From Gammaproteobacteria bacterium RIFCSPHIGHO2_12_FULL_42_10 (GTDB lineage Bacteria; Pseudomonadota; Gammaproteobacteria; DSM-16500): a stretch of 37,134 nucleotides of DNA. Location of the stretch: contig MGYE01000082.1 in NCBI GenBank assembly GCA_001801625.1, forward strand, positions 33,536-70,669, written 5' to 3'. Below are positions 8,701 through 13,667 of the stretch, one piece after another. Made by a program: the position numbers and the translations under genes. The notes below the pieces were generated by a model. That model saw only the letters and a list, made by a program, of their open reading frames with translations. It was not told the DNA's origin and ran no database searches. Numbering within the stretch: position 1 is the stretch's first letter; each line of letters begins with the position of its first letter.

Positions 8701-10585
8701 GAGTGGCGATGTGTTTGGCAATAGTATGCTGATGTCGGAACATTTTAAGTTGATCGCTGCCTTCAATCACGTGCATATTTTTATTGACCCTAATCCTGAT
8801 GCAAAAAATAGCTATCTTGAAAGAAAGCGTTTATTTGCGCTGCCACGTTCTGGATGGATAGATTATAATTTATCTCTCATTTCAAAGGGTGGTGGTATCT
8901 TTGAGCGTTCTGCGAAATCAATTAAGCTAACGCTTGAGATGAAAGCAGCGCTTGATATTCATGTGGATGCGTTAACGCCTTCTGCGTTGATTCAAGCCAT
9001 ACTAAAAGCACCGGTTAATCTTCTGTGTAACGGTGGGATTGGTACTTTCTTTAAATCAACAAAAGAAACACACAGTGATGCGGGTGATCGTGCTAATGAT
9101 GCGATTCGTATTAATGCATCTGAGTTACGTGCCAAAGTGATTGCAGAAGGTGGTAATTTAGGCATGACGCAACTTGCGCGTATTGAGTATTCTTTACAGG
9201 GCGGCATTGTGAATGCAGACTTTATTGATAATTCTGCAGGTGTCGATTGCTCAGATCACGAAGTGAATATTAAAATTTTATTGAATCAATTAGTCACAGC
9301 AAAACAATTAACAGAAGAAAAACGTAATATTCTACTTAAACAAATGACCGATGAAGTCGCGCAGTTGGTATTGCAGGATAATTATGATCAAACACAAATT
9401 ATCAGTTTAGAAATTACCAATATTCATCAAAAAATGGATTTGTTTAGACATTACATGAATGATATGGAAAAACGAGGTCGTCTGGATAGACAATTAGAGT
9501 ATCTACCAACGGATGCACAGATGATTGAGCGCAAGGCTAATAATCAGCCATTGACGCGTCCAGAGGTTGCTATTTTACTTGCTTATAGCAAGATGTACTT
9601 TAAAAAAGACATCGTTAATTTAACCATGCTAAATGAAGCTTATTTTGATAAGTATTTACTGTCTGCTTTTCCAAAGCTGTTGTGCGAGACTTTCCCAACT
9701 GTATTAAGAAAACATCGTTTGCGTAAAGAAATCATTGCGACACAACTGAGTAAAAACATCATCGATCGTATGGGCATTCATTTTGTAGAGCGCTTACACC
9801 AAGAAACGGGCGCAACGTCTGCATTTATTATTAAAGCCTATGTGATTGCTGAAGAAATTTTTCAAATACCCGCTCTTTGGGATCAAATTACAGCTTTGGA
9901 TTATGCGGTGAGCACAGAGGTACAATATCGTTTGATGCTGCAAATACATTATTTAATCAGACGTGTGACGCGGTGGTTGTTGCGCAATAGAAAGCCAAAT
10001 ATTCAGATTAAAAAATCGATTGATGCGTTAGCACCCTCCATTCAATATTTAATACAGCACTTACCGCTGCTGTTGGGTGACTCCGATAAAGAAGCGCTAG
10101 AAAGCGTTGTTAATTATTTTGTTGAGCAAAAAGTACCAGAAAAATTAGCGAGACATGTGGCTTCTTATAACGCTTTATTTACAGCGTTAGATATTATTGA
10201 GGCAACACATAAATATGATCTTGATTTAGCGCTGGCTGCAAAGACTTATTATCGATTAGGTCATCGTATTGAACTCAATATTTTAAGAGAATTAATCAAT
10301 GCTTTCCCGATTGATAATGCTTGGGATGAGTTGGCGCGTTCTGGTTTTAGAGATGATATCGATCGTGTGCAGCGTAAACTCACCGCAAGATTACTAATCG
10401 TTCAAGCAAAAACATTTACTGATACCAATATTGACGAACAAATTGATAGTTGGGTTAAGACCCATCCATTTTTAATGGAGCGTTGGTTAGCATTGCTTGC
10501 AGAGATTAAGTCTAGCGAGATCGTTGGTTTTGTGAAGTATTCCGTGCTGTTAAGAGAGTTATTTGATTTTGTGCAGACTATATGA
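5726..10585 (+). CDS. gdhB: NAD-specific glutamate dehydrogenase, large (about 180 kDa) type
   Basis: 1619 aa; [46 protein letters not shown] and [30 protein letters not shown] are hallmarks of the large bacterial NAD-GDH. Confidence 0.96.
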   Translation: [1619 protein letters not shown]

Positions 10586-11604
10586 AAAATAAATATGATT
10601 CCATTGCCATTGTAGGTGCAACAGGGCTGGTAGGAACGACTTTGCTGGCGTTGCTTCAGGAAACTGTTTTTCCTTTTAAAGCATTGCATCTGATCGCAAG
10701 CGATCAATCTGTTGGTAAAACATTGGTTGTGAAAGATAAGCATTATCTTGTTCAAGATCTTGCTGACTTTGATTTTCAAAAAACACAAATCGCTTTTTTT
10801 TGTGTAAGCAGTCATCTTTCTGAAGTCTATGCTTTAAAAGCTGTTCGAGCTGGCAATCTTGTGATTGATAAGAGCGATCATTTTCGCAATCATCCCGACA
10901 TTCCACTTGTGATTCCTGAGGTGAATGCCAATGCATTGCTTCAATGTAAAAAAGCTTGTTTGATTGCGAGTCCAAATTGCAACACGATTCCAATTGCCAT
11001 TGCATTAAAGCCTATTTACGATGCGGTCGGTATAAAACGCATCAATGTTTCAACTTATCAATCTGTTTCCGGAACGGGTAAACGCGCTATTGATGAGCTG
11101 ACAGAACAAACCAAGCAAATTTTAGAAAAAAGACCTATTGAGTTTGAAGTATATCCACAGCAAATTGCATTTAATGTCTTGCCGCATATTGATCTTTTTG
11201 AGGAAAATGGCTATACGCGTGAAGAAATGAAAATTGTCTGGGAGATGCAAAAAATATTTAACGATACTGACATTGCAATCAATCCCACTGCTGTGCGTGT
11301 GCCCGTGTATTATGGACATGCTGCATCTATCCATCTTGAAACGCGTGATAAAATAACAGCAGAAGAGGCGATGGCTTTATTTGCTGAATCGCCAGCGATG
11401 ACACTCATGACGGGTAAACATCCCTATCCAACGCCTGCACGAGATGCAGCAGGGAAAGATTTAGTCTTTGTAGGTCGTGTGAGGGAAGATATTTCACATC
11501 CAACGGGGTTGAATCTTTGGGTGGTGACAGATAACTTACGTAAAGGCGCGGCACTAAATGCCTTACACATTGCAACGCATTTCTTATCAGAACGGACATC
11601 ATGA
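10582..11604 (+). CDS. asd: Aspartate-semialdehyde dehydrogenase
   Basis: IAIVGATGLVGTTLL NAD(P)-binding start, IASPNCNT active-site Cys, ATGA overlap with the preceding gene. Confidence 0.92.
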   Translation: MKNKYDSIAIVGATGLVGTTLLALLQETVFPFKALHLIASDQSVGKTLVVKDKHYLVQDLADFDFQKTQIAFFCVSSHLSEVYALKAVRAGNLVIDKSDHFRNHPDIPLVIPEVNANALLQCKKACLIASPNCNTIPIAIALKPIYDAVGIKRINVSTYQSVSGTGKRAIDELTEQTKQILEKRPIEFEVYPQQIAFNVLPHIDLFEENGYTREEMKIVWEMQKIFNDTDIAINPTAVRVPVYYGHAASIHLETRDKITAEEAMALFAESPAMTLMTGKHPYPTPARDAAGKDLVFVGRVREDISHPTGLNLWVVTDNLRKGAALNALHIATHFLSERTS

Positions 11605-11897
11605 TTACACTCATTTTTAAAACCTATTTGTATATTTTATCGGGAATTGGCATTGCTTTATTGGCCATTTTTCTGCTGGGTTGTTATTTTATATGGCGCA
11701 TCTTTATGCATCCTGCTCGTCATGCCAATCTTTCGCTGATTGCAGGCGACGATATGATTGCCACACAATTTGACTTAGCGAGAGCATATTTTGAAACGAA
11801 TCAAAAGAATGCTTCAAAAGTTATCTTGAAAACAATTATTGCAACAGGCAATCGCGCACAGATCAGAGAAGCAAAGCTTTTGCTGGAGAAGGTGTGA
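11601..11897 (+). CDS. short membrane protein with FimV C-terminal-like domain
   Basis: One N-terminal TM segment followed by LIAGDDMIATQFDLARAYFETNQKNASKVILKTIIATGNRAQIREAKLLLEKV, which resembles the C-terminal TPR-like domain of FimV; sits between asd and truA, the fimV position in pseudomonads. Confidence 0.72.
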   Translation: MITLIFKTYLYILSGIGIALLAIFLLGCYFIWRIFMHPARHANLSLIAGDDMIATQFDLARAYFETNQKNASKVILKTIIATGNRAQIREAKLLLEKV

Positions 11898-11925
11898 TTT
11901 AGTTTGTATTATTATCTATCCCTCA

Positions 11926-11948
11926 CCCTCACCTTCCCTCGGTGAGGG
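11926..11948. repeat. small CCCTCACC/GGTGAGGG hairpin
   Basis: CCCTCACC (11926-11933), loop TTCCCTC, GGTGAGGG (11941-11948), followed by GAGGGAACGC. Confidence 0.5.
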
Positions 11949-11988
11949 AGGGAACGCAATAGAAATGATTTGATTCAGGCCAGATCTC

Positions 11989-12768
11989 ATGACTCGCATA
12001 GCGCTTGGCGTTGAATACTGCGGTGAAGATTTTTTTGGATTCCAAATCCAGGCTAATCTAAAAACAGTTCAAGCAACGTTAGAGCAAGCACTTTCAAGAA
12101 TTGCTGATGAACCGATTGCGCTGATTTGTGCAGGCAGAACAGACCGCGGTGTTCATGCGACAGGTCAGGTTATTCATTTTGATACAAAAGCTGTTCGTCC
12201 TATTAGCGCTTGGTTGCAGGGAGTGAATACTTATTTGCCCGCATCGCTTAGTGTATGTTGGGCACGCGAGGTGGATGATCAGTTTCATGCACGATTTCGA
12301 GCCATAGCGCGTTCTTATCGTTATATTATTTATAATCAATCTATACAGCGTGCCATGTTGCGTCATCGTGTTGGATTTTGTCGTCAGCCTTTAAATGTTG
12401 CGCCGATGCAAGAAGCAGCGCAGTATTTGTTGGGCGAACAAGATTTTACTTCATTTAGATCCTCTCAGTGTCAATCAAATACACCTATGCGGTGTATCAA
12501 TAAAATCACACTGGTGCGGCAAAACGATTTTGTCATGTGCGATATCACTGCTAATGCCTTTTTACATCATATGGTTAGAAATATCGTTGGTACGTTGATT
12601 TTAGTGGGGAGGGGGCTCCATACTACTTTATGGGTAAAAACGGTGCTAGAAGCAAGAAATAGGGCTCTAGCAGGAGAGATGGCGCCACCGGAAGGTTTGT
12701 ATTTAATCAACGTGTTATACCCTGAACCGTATCTTTTTCCTCCCGCTGATTTGCCGTTTCTGGTATAA
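11989..12768 (+). CDS. truA: tRNA pseudouridine(38-40) synthase
   Basis: MTRIALGVEYCGEDFFGFQIQ, CAGRTDRGVHATGQVIHF, FLHHMVRNIVGTLI motifs. Confidence 0.96.
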   Translation: MTRIALGVEYCGEDFFGFQIQANLKTVQATLEQALSRIADEPIALICAGRTDRGVHATGQVIHFDTKAVRPISAWLQGVNTYLPASLSVCWAREVDDQFHARFRAIARSYRYIIYNQSIQRAMLRHRVGFCRQPLNVAPMQEAAQYLLGEQDFTSFRSSQCQSNTPMRCINKITLVRQNDFVMCDITANAFLHHMVRNIVGTLILVGRGLHTTLWVKTVLEARNRALAGEMAPPEGLYLINVLYPEPYLFPPADLPFLV

Positions 12769-12803: not shown

Positions 12804-13667
12804 ATGAGCTGGTTTAAAAAATTATTACCATCCCGCATTCGTACCGTAACGAGCACTAAAAAGGTACCAGAAGGGCTATGGTCCAAGTGTCCTAGTTGCC
12901 AAGCGGTGCTTTATCGAACTGAATTAGAAAAAAATTTAGAAGTCTGCCCTAAGTGCGATTACCATATTCGTCTTTCTGCGCGTAAACGATTAGCATATTT
13001 TTTAGATTCAATGCCGACAGATGAAATTGCGTCTGAGGTTGGGCCAAAAGATTTACTCAAATTCAAAGATCTCAAAAAATATAAGGATCGTTTGGTTGTA
13101 GCACAACATGATACCGGCGAGAAAGAAGCCTTGGTTGCGATGCACGGCACGGTGCAAGATGTACCCGTTGTTGTCGCGGCATTTGAATATCAGTTTATTG
13201 GCGGCTCAATGGGCGCTGCTGTGGGGGAGCGTTTTGTGCGTGCTGTACAAATTGCGCTGGAACAGCGCATTCCTTTTGTTTGTTTTTCAGCGAGCGGCGG
13301 TGCGCGTATGCAAGAGGCGCTTACCTCGCTCATGCAAATGGCTAAAGTGAGCGCAGCGTTAACAAGGTTGCAAGAGAAAGGCATTCCTTATTTTTCTGTC
13401 TTAACGGATCCCACGATGGGTGGTGTTTCTGCGAGCCTTGCGATGTTGGGCGATATTATTATTGCAGAACCCAATGCGTTAATAGGCTTTGCAGGACCTC
13501 GTGTGATTGAGCAAACTGTTAGGGAGAAACTACCTGAAGGTTTTCAAAGCAGTGAATTTTTATTAAAACATGGTGCGATTGATATGATTGTACATCGTAA
13601 TGATATGCGAAAAATGATTGCAAGATTACTCTCTAAGTTAACGCTATCTAGTCGAGGAGTCGCGTAA
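12804..13667 (+). CDS. accD: Acetyl-CoA carboxylase carboxyltransferase subunit beta
   Basis: [26 protein letters not shown] zinc ribbon; [37 protein letters not shown]. Confidence 0.97.

Follow-up and report, generated by a model that had tools for sequence, protein, structure and literature searches.

The window, that is the whole 37,134-nucleotide stretch of DNA analysed here, carries a short open reading frame, which we refer to as micro-fimV, wedged between asd and truA (Table 1). The location of truA on the 3' side of micro-fimV is the same arrangement as in classical fimV loci. The next gene, which we take to be an accD homologue, completes the order asd-fimV-truA-accD that is conserved in the family to which this genome belongs. 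In the window, micro-fimV and truA are separated by 91 bp, whereas in the relatives these genes mostly abut. This gap is filled by an imperfect palindrome rich in G+C (CCCTCACC...GGTGAGGGAGGG) at positions 11918-11960, which outfolds most of its shuffled versions (z -2.2); no second copy of it was found within the window. The encoded protein has one strong hydrophobic segment, preceded by only ~7 residues and joined to the C-terminal domain by a linker of ~10-15 residues.

Table 1. Features of the micro-fimV locus (window coordinates) and compact pilus genes found elsewhere in the same genome.
Feature	Position	Strand	Remarks
asd, aspartate-semialdehyde dehydrogenase	10582..11604	+	NCBIfam-confirmed; stop codon overlaps the micro-fimV start (ATGA)
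micro-fimV	11601..11897	+	98-aa ORF, ATG start; single TM helix and FimV C-terminal domain
N-terminal TM helix	11601..11708	+	residues 2-36 (AlphaFold); hydrophobic core ~8-32; very short N-terminal side
FimV C-terminal (TPR3-like) domain	11739..11894	+	residues ~47-98; helices 52-65, 69-82, 85-97
truA, tRNA pseudouridine(38-40) synthase	11989..12768	+	NCBIfam-confirmed; downstream of micro-fimV
accD homologue (presumed)	12804..13667	+	named by gene order, no HMM
compact pilus genes	L223:8161-11493 and L227:5724-6848		own genome

The sole NCBIfam match of the micro-fimV ORF was TIGR03504 (FimV_Cterm), which aligned ORF residues 55-97 with profile positions 1-43 of 44 (E 6.9e-7). The score of the ORF alone, 29.2 bits, is slightly under the cut-off of 30.65, and the whole open frame scored 30.4/30.7 bits, the upper figure being just above it. 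Pfam produced only a weak match to TPR_19 (E 0.013). All 20 aligned relatives matched TIGR03504 (best E 1.3e-15), which excludes a chance origin of the match, and the family profile matched 4MAL, a structure of Pseudomonas aeruginosa FimV, with an E value of 2.7e-17. The AlphaFold model, for which the window protein and 19 relatives served as input, consists of a TM helix and three further helices (mean pLDDT 88), and the six best PDB matches returned by Foldseek were all to the TPR3 of P. aeruginosa FimV (4MAL, 4MBQ), with TM-scores of up to 0.93 on target. Micro-FimV is thus predicted to have the three-helix TPR3-like fold of FimV, and the asd-truA locus is that of FimV as well. The sequence-only reading, which had described a 98-aa ORF with one TM segment and a FimV-type C-terminus at the asd-truA locus, was borne out on each of these counts by the profile match, the NCBIfam-confirmed neighbours and the predicted fold. 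Judged from profile, model and position, micro-FimV is a FimV derivative and a positional orthologue of fimV. One could also hold that the ORF encodes a small membrane protein unrelated to FimV, whose TPR-like tail arose by chance, and appeal to the weak TPR_19 match and to the window copy alone falling just below the TIGR03504 cut-off; this notion has a negligible probability and is refuted by the FimV-type locus, profile, fold and family data.

The family is related to Aquicella; the 16S rRNA of BBSC-SA02, a probable member of it, is 94.6% identical to that of Aquicella siphonis (PMC7453286). Its 36 genomes represent the entire order in the genome set examined. A TIGR03504-positive mini-protein is encoded in 31 of the 36, including all 17 of good quality, and the five genomes without a match are 52-83% complete. 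All 31 copies sit in frames of 96-146 aa; FimV elsewhere in the class usually comprises 550-1400 aa. Both asd and truA flank micro-fimV in 29 of these 31 loci, and the remaining two show one neighbour. Every copy has one predicted TM segment, and its C-terminal side is the more positive one in 30 of the 31. In the family alignment, the TM segment and the linker are variable and the domain is strongly conserved (GDD..ATQLDLARAYIE..), with G49, T55, D58, L59, E65, L76, G83 and A91 invariant. The micro form noticed in this genome is therefore real, but it belongs to the whole family and not to this genome alone: the reduction of FimV is ancient and family-wide, dating from the last ancestor shared by the Aquicella-related family or from earlier still. 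Four loci from genera g9 and g12 (L032, L035, L038 and L039) contain mutually different ORFs of 69-100 aa between asd and micro-fimV, which by eye have no evident link to FimV.

Such a short ORF could also be a functionless pseudogene remnant of fimV in a shrinking genome, a possibility that would fit the 1.43-Mb size of this (96% complete) genome, the gap in front of truA and the position of the window copy as the most divergent one in the family (30.4 bits vs 40-59 for the others). The FimV_C identity of the window copy to its genus is 0.489, as compared with 0.599 among the other members. This divergence, however, parallels that of TruA, whose identity to the genus is 0.567 for the window and 0.747 among the others and which sits on a long branch in the TruA tree, so that the window lineage as a whole appears to be fast-evolving. 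Further, the same architecture and invariant residues are found in 31 genomes of 11 genera with zero internal stops, and the decay that would have spoken against the sequence-only reading was not seen. The dN/dS check suggested in that reading gave a pairwise median of 0.34, a favourable but rough value with dS near saturation, which makes conservation across 31 genomes the better argument. We therefore reject the pseudogene interpretation, to which we assign a very low probability, and regard micro-FimV as a conserved protein and not a decaying remnant.

The claim that only the TM segment and the C-terminal module remain likewise held: no match to the FimV LysM core (TIGR03505) scored above the cut-off in any of the 36 family genomes, this one included, and the few residues before the TM segment leave no room for such a domain in the ORF. 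This TIGR03505 search was sensitive enough, since it detected the core in the long-FimV controls. No full-length FimV was detected elsewhere in the genome, which has a single TIGR03504 match. The long acidic or repeat-rich region between the TM segment and the FimV domain is likewise missing, its place being taken by the short linker. The domain itself differs in charge: its mean net charge is -0.5 in the 31 micro forms (+2 in the window) and -7.5 in 101 long FimVs, a comparison whose p-value cannot be taken at face value because related sequences are not independent. Since the acidity typical of the long FimVs is gone from the tail domain, the partner surface of micro-FimV may have changed. 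In Shewanella, PdeB docks through its GGDEF domain on a negative patch of the FimV domain of HubP (PMC9061725); by analogy, the loss of this type of acidic patch means that the docking surface of micro-FimV has probably changed its partner or its mode.

Peptidoglycan targeting could have been kept if FimV had been split and micro-FimV acted in trans with a separate LysM protein. Such an arrangement exists in f94, where FimV_C has an ORF of its own behind a 536-aa LysM/TM ORF (L110). Against it stands the lack of any FimV_core match above the cut-off in the 36 genomes and of any LysM ORF between asd and truA in the family loci examined, and we consider a split FimV improbable here. The apparently split fimV is seen in two f94 genomes (L110:2987-4986 (-) and also L109), with the FimV_C ORF located 86 bp after the FimV_core ORF.

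The type IV pilus encoded by the genome is a compact one, with a pilin, PilB, PilC, PilD and PilM/N/P/Q. Of these, PilN and a half-length PilM match are found beside a penicillin-binding-protein gene, together with a 267-aa PilP-domain protein and a 418-aa PilQ. PilB consists of the ATPase part only; a TAA codon inside the match had suggested a broken gene, but the ORF proved to be an intact 374-aa ATPase that has no N-terminal domain. All 36 family genomes have PilQ- and PilB-type matches, although the models used also pick up relatives, those of type II secretion among them. FlhF-like full-length matches occur in five of the 36 genomes at 150-166 bits, below the cut-off of 174, and flagella, as judged by these matches, are mostly absent from the family. 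AMIN domains give PilQ its hold on peptidoglycan; none of the 11 family PilQs tested had one at E<=0.01, whereas PilQ carries two AMIN domains in each of eight long-FimV genomes. In P. aeruginosa, deletion of either the PilQ AMIN or the FimV LysM delocalises the pilus machinery, both being needed for its polar placement (PMC5285504), and in P. putida, FimV that lacks LysM is no longer polar but spreads along the membrane and cell contour (PMC12918733). By analogy, since the LysM and AMIN anchors are both missing, a polar pilus placement read from peptidoglycan through PilQ AMIN and FimV LysM should not operate here. A strict coupling of the LysM and AMIN losses was not upheld across the class: in G086, G070, G128/G240 and G236, the FimV LysM is present but the PilQ frames are short (338-462 aa), and from this length we infer that AMIN is absent from them. 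The ancient family-wide reduction, the loss of acidity in the domain and the AMIN-less PilQ all go beyond the sequence-only reading.

That reading also suggested that the cytoplasmic function of the FimV tail is retained, which we can only infer. The N-terminal helix would anchor micro-FimV in the inner membrane, and the C-terminal three-helix domain would lie in the cytoplasm and bind a client there, most likely the pilus/competence apparatus of the compact type IV kind (PilM/N/OP/Q, PilB). Micro-FimV would then help to assemble the pilus apparatus, or to keep it membrane-bound, with no positional cue taken from peptidoglycan; since position would not be read in this way, a role as membrane tether or scaffold is more likely than one as polar landmark. 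We see about an even chance that micro-FimV, tethered to the membrane, serves to dock a cytoplasmic client, the first candidate for which is the pilus base. Speaking against this, the interface of the FimV domain with its old client is not conserved as such in micro-FimV, and in P. putida and Shewanella putrefaciens the domain contributes little to swimming and is not swappable (PMC12918733).

Co-occurrence with pili is uninformative with regard to the client in any set where micro-FimV and pili are both universal. A function of the FimV tail that is independent of pili, with the pilus association being incidental, has a smaller though still appreciable probability. Its partners could be, for example, c-di-GMP enzymes or chromosome-origin or division-linked proteins, and the FimV domain of HubP indeed binds a GGDEF protein (PMC9061725). 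It would also account for the f48 genomes, which keep a short FimV (88-159 aa) and have no PilQ at E<=1e-50, as well as for the FimV_C frames of 100-372 aa in f121/f133, likewise without PilQ at E<=1e-50; the f48 case argues against a pilus client. However, this threshold is strict, being near the score of the family's own PilQ (6e-58), so that weaker PilQs may be missed; moreover, PilQ- and PilB-type matches occur in the entire family, flagella are mostly absent, and the short FimV is not accompanied here by any gene that would point to a partner. In f121 (L112, L113), a 136-aa hydrophilic ORF, similar in both genomes, adjoins asd between asd and truA, and a diverged FimV_C frame of ~100 aa is also located there. 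Tentatively, and with some doubt, one might suppose that the tail of FimV performs an ancient, minimal task at the inner membrane for which peptidoglycan binding and polar placement are both dispensable, as are type IV pili in some lineages, and that small-genome bacteria trimmed FimV to that core, in the window's family together with the loss of AMIN from PilQ.

In hubs as large and rich in domains as FimV and HubP, it is difficult to tell what the C-terminal domain does apart from targeting. Genomes with a natural FimV of ~100 aa, maintained throughout a family, and an AMIN-less PilQ offer a minimal system for finding the client of this domain and for asking whether the placement of pili can dispense with peptidoglycan cues. 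In a limited search of the literature (open-licence papers), no prior report of micro-FimV was found.

Among the known systems, micro-FimV shares with P. aeruginosa FimV (4MAL/4MBQ, TIGR03504) the C-terminal TPR3 domain, as judged by profile and fold, the location of this domain C-terminal to a TM helix, and the asd-truA locus. Unlike the large P. aeruginosa protein, it comprises just 98 aa and has no periplasmic LysM (TIGR03505), no acidic cytoplasmic region and no other TPRs, and the net charge of its domain is near 0 instead of strongly negative. With HubP of Vibrio and Shewanella it has in common the FimV-type C-terminal domain, which in HubP docks clients such as PdeB (PMC9061725), and a single TM segment, which in micro-FimV is a predicted one; HubP, however, depends on its LysM to reach the pole and contains long acidic repeats, and micro-FimV is devoid of both. 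A similar arrangement is that of the short FimV_C ORFs in f48 and f52 (L106-L108, L076), other families of the class, where a membrane segment and FimV_C are encoded just 5' of truA, as here, and where no FimV_core LysM was found; the called ORF of L106 has no clear TM. PilQ is absent from f48 at E<=1e-50, whereas G390 (f52) has one. These families were not joined with that of the window (f1) in the TruA tree, whose backbone is poorly resolved, so that the number of independent FimV reductions cannot be read from it. The name that fits the domain content of the protein is FimV-derived micro-protein (FimV_C-domain protein) and not FimV/HubP polar landmark, because it lacks the LysM and the acidic region of the latter and has the domain, the predicted fold and the locus of FimV.
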